Part shown: piece after piece, positions 47,306 to 53,985 of the stretch
Layout of the letters: each line of letters starts with the position of its first letter
Numbering within the stretch: position 1 is the first letter of the stretch
NCBI RefSeq assembly: GCF_004339575.1
Contig: NZ_SMFV01000003.1
Span: 124,001 to 188,000, forward strand
Direction of reading: 5' to 3'
DNA: 64,000 nucleotides
Source: Phorcysia thermohydrogeniphila
GTDB lineage: Bacteria; Aquificota; Aquificia; Desulfurobacteriales; Desulfurobacteriaceae
Position numbers and translations under genes: made by a program
The notes under the pieces: model-generated
The model's database searches: none
What the model was told of the DNA's origin: nothing
The model's input: the letters and a program-made list of their open reading frames with translations, nothing else

Positions 47306-48340
47306 TTAAACAACTTCAATCAAGTTCCCTTCCTTAATCTTACCAGCTTCCTGAATCCACTTCACACCTTTTTCTTTCAACCTCTCTATAAGGAGCTCTG
47401 TCCTTTCTTCCGGAACGGCAATGAGGAGCCCTCCTGAAGTTTGAGGGTCAAAGAGGAGCATTCTCGTATCCTCGTCAACGGAGTCAGAAAATCTAACGCT
47501 ATTTCCAACGTAGTCAACGTTATCATAAGTAGCAGCAGGGAGAAGACCCATCGCAGCGTATTCCTTTGCTCCTTCCAAAAAGCGTAGCTTTTCAGAGTAA
47601 ATCACTGCTCCAACTCCACTAAACTTCACCATCTCGTAAAGGTGTCCCAAGAACCCAAAGCCGGTTATATCCGTGCAAGCATTCACTCCAACTTCAACCA
47701 TTGCCTCTGAAGCGTACTTGTTCAGCGTTGTCATAACCTCTGAAACTTCTTCTATCTCTTCCTGAGAAGCCATCCCGGCCTTTATGGCTGTCGTCAGAAC
47801 GCCTATACCGAGGGGCTTTGTGTATATGAGGACATCGCCGGGCTTTGCCGTGGAGTTCCTAACAAATTTTTTTGGGTGGACAATCCCCGTAACGGAAAGA
47901 CCGTATTTCGTCTCAAGGTCGTCCACCGTGTGCCCACCAATCAGCGAAACTCCAGCCTCTTTTAGCTTAGAAATTCCTCCCCGCAGGATTTCCTTAAGGT
48001 ATTCCATAGGAACCCTGCAGGCGTCAAACATCACAAGGTTGATAGCCGTTAAAGGCCTTCCGCCCATAGCGTAAACGTCAGAGAGGGCATTCGCAACGGC
48101 TATCTGGCCGTAAACAAAAGGGTCATCAACCACAGGAGTTATAAAGTCTGCCGTTTGAACTAAGGCAACTTCATCTGAAAGTTTGTAAATACCAGCGTCC
48201 TCAGACGTCTCTATTCCGACAAGGACGTTATCATCCACTGGTATCTCAAGCTCTTTGAGAACCTTCTCAAGCCCGACCGGGCTTAACTTCGCCCCTCAGC
48301 CGGAAGCCCTAACCGTCTGGGTCAGCTTAAAGGGTTTCAA
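47306..48340 (-). CDS. selD: Selenide, water dikinase with selenocysteine
   Basis: Makes selenophosphate from selenide and ATP. The reading frame continues upstream of the first conventional start: from a TTG at 48340, with GGAGG six bases before it, it reads MKPFKLTQTVRASG, then UGA (48298-48296), then GAKLSPVGLEKVL, and joins VLVGIETSEDAGIY. The UGA takes the place of the catalytic Cys/Sec in the family's GxxGxK motif, giving Sec15 in a 344-residue protein. A SECIS-like hairpin lies 11 nt downstream. Later motifs include TADFITPVVDDPF and GGHTVDD. A gene call beginning at 48238 would lack the catalytic residue. Confidence 0.93.
48269..48298 (-). promoter_or_regulatory. SECIS-like element of selD
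   Basis: UGA at 48298-48296 is followed after exactly 11 nt by AAGCCC-GGTC-GGGCTT, a perfect 6-bp stem with a GGUC loop. A short stem with G-U in the apical loop at this spacing is how bacterial SECIS elements read by SelB are described for E. coli fdhF. Confidence 0.85.
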
Positions 48341-48405: not shown

Positions 48406-49671
48406 TTAGCCCTTTAAACACTCAAAGTTTTCTCTAAAAAGTTTAACTCCATACTTTTCCCTCAAGCTTTTAAGGAGCTCCTTCTCTTTCTCCCTCAGCT
48501 TTTCCCCTTCAAGCCTTAAAGTTATGTAGTTACGGGCTTCCGTAAGGGTAATCTCCTTGGGGGGAATAAATTTGAGAACCTTAACTACGATGTACCTGTT
48601 ACTACCGAGGTCGGCGATTAAGACCTTACCAGCTTTTTTGTCCCCTCCCATAAATATCAGCGTTCCTACAGGATCCTTAGGGTCGTTGTAGTAGCTTTTT
48701 TCCTTAGCCGTAAACTGGGCAAAAGCCCTTGCCACCTGTTTCCAGTCTTTACCTTTCTCAAGTTCTTCTTTTGCCTTCTCTGCCCTCTCTTTACTGCGGA
48801 AGTAGAAAACAACCGCTTTTGCCCTCTCCGGCATTTTGAACTTTTCCCTGTTCTGCTCGTAGAACCTCTTTATCTCCTCTTCGGTTACGGTTATTTTCTT
48901 GCGGAGCTCCTTCCTGAAAACTTCTATAGCTTTACCGGCATAGTACTCGGTAAGCATCCTCTGAAACTCAGGGTTTTTATCGTAACCCTTCTCTACAGCT
49001 TTCCTGTAAAAGTACTCTGTTAGGAGCTCTTTTTTCAGCTTTTCTTTCAGCTTTGAGGTATCTTTTCCTTCTGCTGCGACTTCTATCCCGCAGCAGCTTG
49101 CAACCACTCTACCGTCTTTCTGGGTGAAGGCTATTTTCTTTTCAACACTGGCGTAAATGTCCCTCACAGCCTCGTCGTACTTCTTTACCTTTAGCTCGTT
49201 CCTTATAAACTTCCTGTCCCCTTCTGTCATCTTTGAAGGGTCTTTGTCTGGGAAGAGCTCCTTGAAACGCTTAACTATCTCCTCGTCCGTTACCTTTTCT
49301 GCCACTTCTTGAGCTTGTAGGGAAACGTAGTAACGAGAAAGGTACTCCTTCTTGAACCTTTCAATTTCCCTGTCCAAACCGTACTTTTTAGCAAGTCCTG
49401 AATCTTCAACGTACTTAATTACAAGCCTTCTATTTATCATTCTGTTAAGTAAATCTTCCGGGTGCTTTGAGAAGTAGTCCTTCGCCTTAGGCTTTAAGAG
49501 CTCCTCAACGTACCTGTAATCTCCCAAGGTAATTCTTATCCCCTTGCCAGAGGCAAGTAGCGTATCCTCAGTGCAGACAGTTTCCTTCTTGGTTTCCGCT
49601 TTTTGAACGCCACTTTCGCAGGAAGTTGAAATAAAAGCCACCAATAGAAGGGCTGGCAAAAAGCGTCTCAT
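48406..49671 (-). CDS. SurA/PrsA-like lipoprotein foldase (peptidyl-prolyl isomerase)
   Basis: 421 residues with lipobox STSC (Cys18). An N-terminal SurA-N-like helical domain (about 40-160), then a charged linker with CC, and a parvulin-like region (VTEEEIKRFYEQNREKFKMPERAKAVVFYF, about 265-370). Parvulin core residues such as the terminal IG-F-H motif are weak, so isomerase activity is uncertain while chaperone function is likely. It lies immediately downstream of the large cytochrome gene, behind a terminator hairpin, and may assist its folding or export. Confidence 0.75.
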   Translation of the reverse strand: MRRFLPALLLVAFISTSCESGVQKAETKKETVCTEDTLLASGKGIRITLGDYRYVEELLKPKAKDYFSKHPEDLLNRMINRRLVIKYVEDSGLAKKYGLDREIERFKKEYLSRYYVSLQAQEVAEKVTDEEIVKRFKELFPDKDPSKMTEGDRKFIRNELKVKKYDEAVRDIYASVEKKIAFTQKDGRVVASCCGIEVAAEGKDTSKLKEKLKKELLTEYFYRKAVEKGYDKNPEFQRMLTEYYAGKAIEVFRKELRKKITVTEEEIKRFYEQNREKFKMPERAKAVVFYFRSKERAEKAKEELEKGKDWKQVARAFAQFTAKEKSYYNDPKDPVGTLIFMGGDKKAGKVLIADLGSNRYIVVKVLKFIPPKEITLTEARNYITLRLEGEKLREKEKELLKSLREKYGVKLFRENFECLKG

Positions 49672-49748: not shown

Positions 49749-52700
49749 TTACTGCTTCTTCTTCCTTCTAAATCCAAACAGTCCGAGGAGACCAGAGAAG
49801 AGAACTCCAAGGTTGAATGCCCCAGAAGCAGGGCTTGCAGCTGGTGTTACTGAACAGCCTCCACCGCCACCACCGGTAGGCGTCTCGGCCTCGCTTCCAG
49901 CAGTTGGCGTAATGTTCCTCAGGATAGCTACAGCAAGCTCTCCTTCACCTGTAGCCCTTGAGTCTGCCCTAATGGCAGCAACGTTCAAGGTTAACGTCTT
50001 GGAGTAGGAGTCGTAGGAAGCCCATCCCCTGTTGATAGCTTCCCTCATAGTAATGGACTCAGGGTTGAAGCTATCTTTGTCAACTTCGTAAGAAACTTTC
50101 TCTCCCTCTGAATGTCTTACCTTGACTATTTCGGCGTAGTTGAGGTAAAGGTCGTCAATGCTGGCTACGCCAAGGTCAGAAAGCTTAAACTCCAGCTTCT
50201 CTATGTAGTGGGAGAGAATAACTGGCGTGAATACCGCTTCAACCCCTTCTCTTTCGCCTGCATCAACGATTTCATCGGCAAGGTGTTCAAAGCCAAGGAG
50301 CTCCGGTAGTTCATTCTTAAGCCTTACAACAATAGCCCTTCTTGGCATTTCTCCTTCTGGAAGAACCTCTGTCTCAACCTCAACGGGAACTCCTTCAAAC
50401 TTCATACTCCACTTCTTGTTCTTCCACTCTTCTGGTGCTGTAGCCGGAACAGCAAAGGCAATACCGTCAATGCCGCTACTTTCAACAGGTATCGGAACTA
50501 AGTGTCTGTCAATGTCAAGGCCGTTAGAGAGGGCGTTTACGAGAAAGTCTCCAGCGTGCCTAATCATAACCTCGTAGTTCTTTCCTCCCCAACTCATGGT
50601 TCCGTAGATAGGCTCTCCTTCCTCGTTCTCCGGGGAGTTAAAGAATACTAAGGTATGAGCTTCAACAGCTTCTCTGTAAGCCTTAGGAGGTATTTTTACA
50701 GGAACTGTAACGATTTCCCTTCCAAGTCCGAAGTACTTAATCGTTCCATCAGAGTTCTTAACAATAAGGGAAGATAGCGTTTCATCTCCTTCTATGTCCC
50801 CCATGTTAGCCTGAGGAAGTCTTCCATTCCTTGCATCGTGGCAAGCAGAACAGGAGAGCTCCTCTCCATTTATGCTCTTCTCGTTAGCACCAAGGGCATA
50901 CTCTTTTGGAAGAACGCCGTGGTCAATGCTAAATGGAGCCGTCCAGATGTAAAAGACAGGGTCTGGGTTTTTAACTCCTTCCGCCTTAAGAACCTCAGTG
51001 ATAGCTCTCTTCATAGCATCATACTCAGTATCCGTGTCAATCTCCGGCATGAAGTCTCCGTTGTCGTCGCAGATTGGGTCACCCAGTATCGTCTTAACAC
51101 AAACCTTGTTGTTCTCCCAGTAGTAAGCAGGAACTTTCTTGTCGCTCTGTCCAGCAGGTAGGATTCCCGAAGAGGCAGCCTCAGAGGTTACCTCACCGCT
51201 TAAGGCCGCGTTTATCTCCCTCGTGTAAAGAACCTTACCGGTTGACTTGTCGTACCAAGTAACGAGGGTAAGTGGGTCTGCAATTCTGTATATGAACCTC
51301 TGGCCACCCGGCTCATCTGGCCTAAAGCCGTTGTTGATTATGACGGTAGCCCATCCCCAAGGGAAAGATTCCTGAGGAACTTTCCAGATACCAAACTGGG
51401 TTCTCTCAAGCCTTAAAGCAGCTTGCCTTGGGTCAAAGTCAACCTTGTAGATTGGAACGACAACGTCCTTACCGTTAGCAGTTTTAGCTATCGGGAAGGG
51501 CTGTGGAGCACCATACCCAGCTATTGGCATGAATGGACCAAATCCGGGGGAGAACATATCAATGGGTAAAAACTGAACGCTGTTGTTCTCGTTTTCCTTG
51601 TAGTAGAGCATCCTGTTGTCAAAGTTGTAGGAGTATCCAAGAACATCGTAGAAGGCCCTGAAGGTCCAGTGGGTTCTGTAAGGAATGTGACACACTTCAC
51701 AGGCAATCTTTTCCATGTGAATCGCAGCGTTCCCTTCAGGTCCAAACTTCTCTTGGTGAACTTGAGCTGCAAGCTCCCTTGAGCCACCGAAGTGACAGTC
51801 TACACAGGTCTTCAAGGATGGGTTGTAGTCAAGGGACTGGTCCCAGTGACCTCCCCAGTCGTTACCTTTGAGGAAGTCGTGGTGGACGGGGTGGAGCTCC
51901 TTCTCCTCTTCCGTAAGCGTTCCCTCTCCATGGCAGGAGAGACAGGTCATACCACCTTTCTCGCTGTCAAAATGAACGTCGTAACCTATTGGGACATCGT
52001 CAAAGGAGATAACTGATTTTGCCTTCTGCATCTTGGAGAAGGCCTGCTGCTTCTGAACTGGGTCGGCAAGGTCGTAACCCTGAAGGTCTGTTGCCTGTAA
52101 GTTACCCTTATCCTCTCCTCCTCTGTGGATATCGTAAGAGAAGACGTCTCCCCTCTTAACTATCTCAGCAGCAAGACCGAGGGTTCCTTTTCTCGTTACC
52201 CAAGTGTAGTAGGTCGTGTCTTTTACGTTGTCCCCGTTTGTGTCAACCTCTGCAGACGGGTAAACGATTGCCATGTGGCAGTAGGAGCAAACAAATCCCC
52301 ATTCCCTATTCTTAGTACCGTTTGTCATCTGAGGATAAGGATTGTCTGCCGTTCCGCTGCTTGTCGGAACGGAGTAGGTGTAGGTTTCTTCCTCCCTGTT
52401 TTGAAGAATCGGTAGCTCAACTTCTCCCTTATCGTTAAATTCGTCAGCGTCGTAGTAAACTTCCGGCTTCCAAATATCACCGTCTTTTACGAACCTCACG
52501 TAGGCTAAGGGAACCCCGTCTTGGTCAGTGTCAACTCCCATTAAAGAGGCAGTGGAGATGTACTTAAAGAAGAATCCTGCAAAGGTTCTGTAAACTACGT
52601 TTCCATCCTTGTCCTTTAAAAGAGCCGCTCCGCCACCAACGTAGGGCTCTCCGCCGTCTTTGTCCTTAGTGGTCTCTGGGTGCTCAAAGTAAACAACCCT

Positions 52701-53894
52701 CGCTACCTCTCTGGTCGCTCCGTTTGCGTTGTTTGGATAGAGAATAAAGGGTTTTGCTTCTGTTCCGTTCCTTATTACGTCGTTTATGAATGTGTCGTCA
52801 ACGCCGTAGACGGCCTTTAGAACCTCTAATGGAACGGAGTTGTAGTAGGCAGACTCAACCTTTGCAACGGTCTTTCCGTTAATTGTTTCTCCAACTTTTG
52901 GAGGAACTCCAAGGGAAATGACTATCGTTTCTCCTTCGTCCGTAACTCCCTTAAACACCATAACTCTTGGGTTTGCAGGCATTATCGGGTAAACGTCGGC
53001 AACTCCAAGCTGGGTGTGAACAGTCTTATCCTTCTGGGAGGCGTCAGCGTGACACATGAAACAGTCGGTATCGTTGACTCCAGAACGCTTGAAGTTAAAG
53101 ACTCCCGGTTTTCCTATGTAACCGGCTCCGACCTCGTAGTCTGAGTAACCCAAGAGGTCTCCGTCAATTCCTACCTTCGCTATAAGGGTATCGTCGTGGA
53201 TGAACCAGTCCTTATTACTTGCCAGAGCTTCAAAGTCACTATCGCCGAGCCTCTCTTTTAGAACCTCATCAAGAGGCTTGTCCTCCCTTCCAAACTGAGC
53301 AGCTCCTCCACCTGCGTGGCAGGAGTTACAGGTTATGTTGTGGTTCATAGTTCCCATATCAAAGTTGAAACCTTTGTAAGCGTTGGCATCTGCAGGGTTT
53401 ATGCCTTCTACTGCTCCATCTGGAACTGCAGGGTCGTTTAGAGGATTCTTTGCCGCCAACTGGCGGTAGGAAGGTGGTCACCAGCCCCCGTAGTGGGACT
53501 TACTGCGGAAGTAGCGCATTTTCAACACTTGATTGGTCACAAAATCCTTAGTTCCAGTATCATCACCGTGGGTTTCTTCGTTGTCCATCCAGCCCATGTC
53601 GTGGATTCCAACAGCTCCGTGGTGGGACATGCGGAGGTCCTCAATTATCTCCTCGTGACACTGGCCACAGGTCTTTTCCCAGCTGACCGGTTTACCCTTT
53701 TTAAGGGAAACGACGTTCCCGTTTTTGTCCTTTACCTCTATGGTCTCAGAGGAAAGTCCGCTGATGATGCTGTTCCCTTCCGTGTCAAGGAGCTTTATGG
53801 CCTCGTGATCGGCATACCCTTGCGAGGCAAGAACCGCACTCAGTATAAAGGAAGTTGTAAGGGTCAGCTTACTCTTTCTCCACCTCGCCCTCAT
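49749..53894 (-). CDS. Candidate selenocysteine-containing octaheme cytochrome c, surface-sorted
   Basis: One continuous frame of 1382 codons interrupted only by an in-frame UGA at 53480-53478. From the ATG at 53894, after TTGGAGGACGAG, residues 1-28 form a signal peptide. The first heme site CGQCH is at 76-80 and UGA is residue 139 (HYGGW-U-PPSYRQL). Seven more CXXCH follow: CNSCH, CFMCH, CSYCH, CLSCH, CVDCH, CEVCH and CSACH. A SECIS-like hairpin lies 11 nt after the UGA. The C-terminus is a six-Gly run, Cys, a hydrophobic stretch and RRKKKQ, a CTERM-like sorting tail. Likely a large extracellular or outer-surface electron carrier; without Sec decoding it would be two separate pieces. It is not recognised as a named family. 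Confidence 0.8.
53453..53480 (-). promoter_or_regulatory. SECIS-like element in the multiheme cytochrome gene
   Basis: UGA at 53480-53478, then 11 nt, then CCGCC-AGTT-GGCGG, a 5-bp GC stem with G-U inside the four-base loop. The spacing to the stem and the loop G-U position are the same as in the selD element. The stem is short and no lower stem is obvious, so functionality rests on the comparison. Confidence 0.7.
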
Positions 53895-53940
53895 CTCGTC
53901 CTCCAATGCGTTTACAAAATTTTTACATTCCGGGATTCTA

Positions 53941-53969
53941 ATTCTAACAGAACATCCATAATCTTTCAA
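53941..53969 (-). promoter_or_regulatory. Promoter of the selenocytochrome gene
   Basis: On the minus strand, TTGAAA (53969-53964), a 17-nt spacer and TAGAAT (53946-53941) lie about 47 nt upstream of the cytochrome start, just inside the gap after ruvB. Both hexamers differ from sigma70 consensus at one or two positions. Confidence 0.6.
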
Positions 53970-53985
53970 CATTAATAATCTTTTA

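Follow-up and report, generated by a model that had tools for sequence, protein, structure and literature searches.

Most known selenoproteins use selenocysteine (Sec) as a catalytic residue and not as a heme ligand. Among c-type cytochromes, one family with Sec is known, the ExtKL proteins of Geobacter (NF040886). ExtKL is a multiheme cytochrome with an in-frame UGA, predicted to be a selenoprotein and encoded near an outer-membrane porin-like gene (PMC1914089, PMC5877670). Its authors found no bacterial selenocysteine insertion sequence (bSECIS) (PMC1914089; PMC5877670) and tied the protein to selenite reduction, not to metal oxides (PMC5877670). A 2026 review also lists WP_331457571.1, an uncharacterized selenoprotein annotated in GenBank as "Tetrathionate reductase family octaheme c-type cytochrome" (PMC13188914). 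The present analysis concerns another gene for an octaheme c-type cytochrome (49749..53894), found in a 64,000-nucleotide stretch of the genome of Phorcysia thermohydrogeniphila (contig NZ_SMFV01000003.1, positions 124,001 to 188,000; hereafter the window). It lies on the minus strand, as do all features of the window described below, and encodes 1381 residues with one in-frame UGA, at codon 139, that is almost certainly decoded as Sec.

This reading of the UGA was proposed in an initial annotation of the window. It is supported by conservation of the TGA, by homologues with Cys at the site, by a SECIS-type hairpin with covariation and by the presence of the Sec machinery. The same annotation regarded a role of Sec as heme ligand or catalytic residue as uncommon among c-type cytochromes. 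ExtKL is a precedent for a multiheme cytochrome with Sec; the suggested role stays hypothetical, and the ligand census below gives the idea of ligation a concrete form. Taken as a whole, the protein is probably an exported Sec octaheme of a family that usually has Sec at this site, and it probably works on the cell surface, either as the terminal reductase or as a relay. The family is a large one, spread over several phyla whose members are mostly anaerobic; its genes are split in two by gene callers, and curated libraries lack a description of it; no description of it was found in the literature (open-licence papers).

The in-frame UGA and its conservation

The two frames of the gene, 53972-53478 (164 residues) and 53459-49749 (1236 residues), share one register, and the TGA at 53480-53478 is the sole stop between 53972 and 49749, as had been claimed. 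The preferred start is the ATG at 53894, five bases downstream of a ribosome-binding site GGAGG (53904-53900), and the length and the position of the UGA given earlier agree with this start. The UGA codon (53478..53480) lies in the sequence SHYGGW-U-PPSYRQLAAK. An N-terminal signal sequence of about 28 residues (53811..53894) was judged by eye from its basic start and hydrophobic core. The fused product contains eight CXXCH motifs, one ahead of the UGA and seven behind it, which matches the original count. They are heme 1 CGQCH (Cys76, 53655..53669), heme 2 CNSCH (Cys189, 53316..53330), heme 3 CFMCH (Cys278, 53049..53063), heme 4 CSYCH (Cys536, 52275..52289), heme 5 CLSCH (Cys651, 51930..51944), heme 6 CVDCH (Cys697, 51792..51806), heme 7 CEVCH (Cys732, 51687..51701) and heme 8 CSACH (Cys1015, 50838..50852). 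The eight motifs and the export signal are those of a c-type multiheme cytochrome, the signal being one judged by eye. At the C terminus, GGGGGGC is followed by a hydrophobic stretch and RRKKK (49752..49874), an arrangement that resembles the MYXO-CTERM/JDVT-CTERM sorting signals; two paralogues match the models for these signals with scores under the cut-off.

TGA is an ordinary stop codon in the window: among stop-to-stop frames with 180 or more codons, it terminates 20 of 54. The standard code assumed at the outset is thereby confirmed, and reassignment of UGA was rejected on this ground. The TGA at 53480-53478 is the only one in the window with at least 100 open codons on both sides.

A GTDB-wide scan used the pattern PP[SA]YRQLA[AP] and left the preceding codon free. 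TGA occupies the site in all 60 readable relatives that match the motif and in one more at a contig end (61/61), and single-contig genomes are among those that carry it. According to their record titles, the relatives belong to the Desulfurobacteriaceae (Aquificota), many Deltaproteobacteria and Thermodesulfobacteriota including Desulfobulbaceae, Deferrisomatales, Methylomirabilis (Methylomirabilota), Calditrichota and the Firmicute Ammonifex thiophilus, and every complete copy has eight CXXCH motifs. Within the window's family, three paralogue groups retain the TGA at about 30-40% identity. These comprise the orthologues of the window gene (group A, 13 loci in other genomes of the family), a paralogue about 40% identical to it (group B, 13 copies) and a shorter paralogue of about 810 residues, present in nine genomes with the window's own among them (group C). 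Every one of these genes has TGA at the site, followed by PP[S/A]YRQLA, with AP instead in one case.

A profile search of further genomes recovered shorter Sec forms with altered flanks, in which the TGA is followed by TPAPLFPQLAEK, PPATASSQLAAK, SAAPNYRQLAKK and others. It also recovered genuine homologues in which Cys (TGT) replaces Sec (L177, L180 and L199-L202; locus and genome labels are those of this work). Residue 139 is thus aligned with UGA in 61 of 61 motif-matched relatives and with Cys in these forms, as was predicted for a Sec site. The 12-mer CGCCAGTTGGCG, which belongs to the hairpin region described below, persists behind the Cys codon in L199-L202, where the copies are apparent SECIS fossils. 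L199 and L200 are nested within Sec forms in the tree, so that Sec is most simply ancestral in the branch that holds them.

The window's genome encodes SelA (643 bits), SelB (430 bits), a tRNA-Sec with anticodon UCA (84 bits) and SelD, and thus the complete set of host factors sought. The selD gene lies within the window (47306..48340) and has an in-frame UGA of its own (48298-48296). tRNA-Sec was also detected in 17 of 21 other genomes tested. Two of the four genomes with no match, G089 and G092, carry Cys forms, and the other two carry UGA forms and are considered below. Two of four Cys genomes do have a tRNA-Sec, and its presence does not split Sec from Cys genomes cleanly.

The hairpin downstream of the UGA

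The hairpin CCGCC-AGUU-GGCGG (53453..53466), reported in the initial annotation as lying just past the UGA, starts 12 nt after it and has a minimum free energy (MFE) of -9.4 kcal/mol. Bacterial SECIS elements follow four published rules: a loop of 3-9 nt on a stem of 4-16 bp, a G among the first two loop nucleotides, a distance of 16-37 nt between the UGA and the loop, and an MFE of -7.5 or lower (PMC13188914). With its AGUU loop, 5 bp stem, G in second place, 16 intervening nucleotides and energy of -9.4 kcal/mol, the window hairpin obeys all of them; it is also conserved as RNA, with covariation among distant relatives. The MFE z-score is only -1.4 and is weak by itself; conservation and covariation carry the case. 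An Rfam search over the window gave no match.

The codons at +4 to +8 after the UGA, UAC CGC CAG UUG GCG (53454..53468), are invariant. These 15 nt are identical in 74 of 74 distinct genes, wobble positions included, and synonymous codons vary at +1 to +3, +9 and +10 among the same genes, a variation that serves as an internal control. With the codon usage of the individual genes as background, the log10 probabilities of codon identity at +4 to +8 are -16, -79, -10, -87 and -80, values overstated by shared ancestry. In divergent relatives the outer stem pairs change on both sides, from C-G to U-A, G-C or A-U. The covariation score is 0.210 against 0.052 in shuffles, none of 500 of which scored as high, with some of the cells representing related sequences. 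The loop variants of the divergent relatives, AGUU and AGGU, both obey the bSECIS rule. Of the Cys forms, L177 and L180 have lost the hairpin, and L173, with Leu at the site, has an eroded one. This SECIS hairpin is frozen in sequence as well as in shape, which raises the question of why both are kept.

Across 22 genomes of the class there are 23 copies of the 12-mer CGCCAGTTGGCG, every one of them at a site of these cytochrome genes. It is therefore a signature of the cytochrome family and not of host selenoprotein genes generally. The UGA of selD carries a different SECIS-like hairpin, UUAAGCCC-GGUC-GGGCUUGA. Counted from the UGA, its loop begins at nt 18 and that of the cytochrome at nt 17, so the spacing originally likened between the two genes agrees to within 1 nt.

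Heme ligands, electron transfer and competing readings

No Pfam or NCBIfam model spans the whole protein. The model of the octaheme tetrathionate reductase (OTR) family, TIGR04315, matches the present family locally over hemes 5-7, with scores of 23-45 bits where the cut-off is 375. The window protein scores 29 bits, as a local match only, and falls outside the subfamily. An AlphaFold2 model of the heme core has a predicted local distance difference test score (pLDDT) of 74 and a predicted template modelling score of 0.81. The best match to this model in the PDB by Foldseek is 1sp3, the Shewanella octaheme cytochrome (E 1.5e-3, probability 0.98, TM-scores 0.15/0.31). Because of the weak TIGR04315 match and the choice of 1sp3 as best fold match, the protein is interpreted as an octaheme distantly like OTR, carrying large insertions and lying outside the curated subfamily. 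A sequence search of the PDB with the family profile gave nothing significant; for the short relatives there is a weak match to NrfA across hemes 4-6. A structure model of a 725-residue paralogue core was unusable (pLDDT 41).

A census of His, Lys, Met and Cys conserved outside the eight CXXCH motifs in 72 aligned sequences provides candidates for the distal heme ligands. They are His92 (53619..53621), Lys580 in KRG (52155..52157), His713 (51756..51758), His726 (51717..51719) and His992 (50919..50921), each in 72/72 sequences, His641 (51972..51974; 71/72) and His672 (51879..51881; 70/72, with Cys in the other two). Together with the Sec/Cys site, the six His and Lys580 make eight conserved candidates for eight hemes, and this match suggests that Sec139 may be the distal ligand of a heme. 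Direct ligation is a serious possibility, put somewhat below an even chance. A natural heme-selenolate site is thereby suggested; to our knowledge, no other natural c-type heme with His/Sec ligation has been described, and one here would be the first. The Sec forms L175 and L204 have Cys at the position of His672. Lys676, four residues past His672, is kept in 69/72 sequences and is Met or Arg elsewhere.

The loci of Desulfobacterota type offer a view of the electron-transfer chain. The Sec gene is usually preceded there by genes for a protein of about 468 residues, which ends in an aromatic residue and resembles an outer-membrane barrel, and for a 12-heme lipoprotein. The pair was found in most of the loci examined outside the Aquificota (L114, L091, L104, L098, L111, L096 and L089), and L078 is similar; examples are L111:144-2465, L114:3431-5780 and L091:2255-4596. 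In Ammonifex thiophilus (L077:1932-4496) the Sec octaheme is fused to a cytochrome b of the formate-dehydrogenase-gamma type. This operon and this fusion both suggest that the Sec octaheme terminates a quinone-linked chain. The protein is probably a surface electron-transfer protein.

According to the mechanism proposed, SelB, tRNA-Sec and the downstream hairpin would read UGA 139 as Sec to give a single exported octaheme of 1381 residues. The protein would close an electron-transfer chain on the outside, at the cell surface, and serve there as terminal reductase or as relay. Electrons would come from the quinone pool by way of cytochromes in the periplasm or associated with the barrel, and would leave along the heme chain. 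Sec139, between hemes 1 and 2, would be positioned at a heme, either as the distal axial ligand (His/Sec) or as an adjoining redox-active residue. The preferred substrate would be polysulfide, tetrathionate or elemental sulfur; a sulfur-type acceptor is preferred because of an analogy with the His/Cys heme of TsdA, and as an identification of the acceptor it is rather unlikely. The protein is a candidate surface reductase for hydrothermal-vent bacteria; among these is the related Thermovibrio ammonificans, whose pathway of sulfur reduction has been described as unclear (PMC5441870).

Several observations weigh against this interpretation. The site holds Ser in group D, the sister of group C, and Leu in the giant paralogue L173, where most of the hairpin is retained, and a heme ligand at this position would thus be dispensable in some relatives. 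The AlphaFold2 model falls below 50 pLDDT around the Sec and lends ligation no structural support. No tRNA-Sec match was found in the UGA-form genomes G043 and G076, which are drafts of unstated completeness and possibly incomplete. No homologue of the barrel was found in the Desulfurobacteriaceae or near the window gene, in a search made without a positive control. The giant multiheme paralogues (at least 1900 codons) with no stop at the site are L173, G080:C88:18504-18875 and G080:C64:3559-3927.

Sec139 may be catalytic or redox-active without ligating a heme, forming a selenosulfide or substrate adduct near an open-site heme or shuttling electrons between hemes 1 and 2. Sec is catalytic in most known selenoproteins, and a dispensable catalytic residue suits the Ser and Leu paralogues better than an obligatory ligand does; without Sec, however, the conserved ligand set falls one short of eight. 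This role is a credible one that stops a little short of being probable.

It is also possible, if somewhat improbable, that the electrons go to a metal oxide outside the cell, to an electrode or to a partner cell, and that the protein is a general surface relay like MtrC or OmcB in which Sec tunes the potential of one heme. The conduit-like porin-cytochrome architecture of the Desulfobacterota operons is in keeping with such a relay, whereas the heme core resembles that of OTR, which belongs to an enzyme class with small inorganic substrates, and the authors of ExtKL linked that protein to selenite and not to metal oxides (PMC5877670). The most far-reaching form of the ligand interpretation is offered tentatively. 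It would describe a widespread surface octaheme family with Sec as a distal heme ligand, a natural His/Sec c-type heme at the reducing end of an extracellular respiratory chain, and a SECIS element frozen across phyla.

The retention of the 15 nt in a Cys clade might suggest a regulatory or structural RNA unconnected with Sec insertion. This is very improbable, since the position, stem, spacing, energy and loop (G in second place, then U or G) are all bSECIS-like, the element is lost in L177 and L180 and eroded in L173, and the host has the Sec machinery. The UGA might instead be a genuine stop, explained by two adjoining genes, by a gene that has decayed or suffered a frameshift, or by an error in sequencing, but this is scarcely credible. 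Standard calling does split the gene, a TTG at 53459 could start the downstream frame and UGA is frequent as a stop in the window, but the identical codon is found in 61 relatives and three paralogue groups, single-contig genomes included, the protein is conserved on either side of it, the downstream part has no signal peptide and true homologues have Cys sense codons. Two separate genes and sequencing error were both rejected. The persistence of the TGA and its open frame across orthologues, and across paralogues only about 40% identical, goes far beyond chance.

Downstream of the cytochrome gene lies a gene for a PpiC/SurA-like peptidyl-prolyl isomerase lipoprotein (48406..49671). It follows the group A gene in all eight Desulfurobacteriaceae loci with enough sequence (8/8) and is possibly a dedicated folding factor for the Sec cytochrome.

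Comparison with known systems

The cytochrome shares with ExtKL its multiheme c-type character, the in-frame UGA and, in the Desulfobacterota-type loci, a neighboring outer-membrane candidate. ExtKL differs in having five hemes with the Sec behind all of them, whereas the window protein has eight hemes with the Sec between hemes 1 and 2. The window protein gave no match to NF040886 at E<=1, and the paralogue P0002 scored 10.8 bits against a cut-off of 250; by sequence, ExtKL is not detectably homologous. WP_331457571.1 combines an octaheme with one Sec, as here, in a comparison made by description only, and the present family scores far under the TIGR04315 cut-off.

TsdA, a thiosulfate dehydrogenase/tetrathionate reductase, serves as a working analogy only, in that it uses a His/Cys heme in sulfur-compound chemistry (PMC5146829). 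It is a diheme protein, unlike the octaheme described here, and is likened to it by function, not by homology. The Desulfobacterota-type operons resemble the MtrCAB, Omb-Oma-Omc and Ext conduits in their combination of a probable barrel, a multiheme lipoprotein of periplasmic type and a large multiheme cytochrome. They differ from these known porin-cytochrome conduits in that the barrel candidate of about 468 residues has no Pfam or NCBIfam match and that no barrel was found beside the Sec gene in the Aquificota. OTR of Shewanella (1sp3; TIGR04315) has, like the window protein, eight c-type hemes, and the two match locally around hemes 5-7. The window protein is about three times the length of OTR. 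It contains large insertions, has its Sec domain between hemes 1 and 2, and bears a sorting-like signal at its C terminus.

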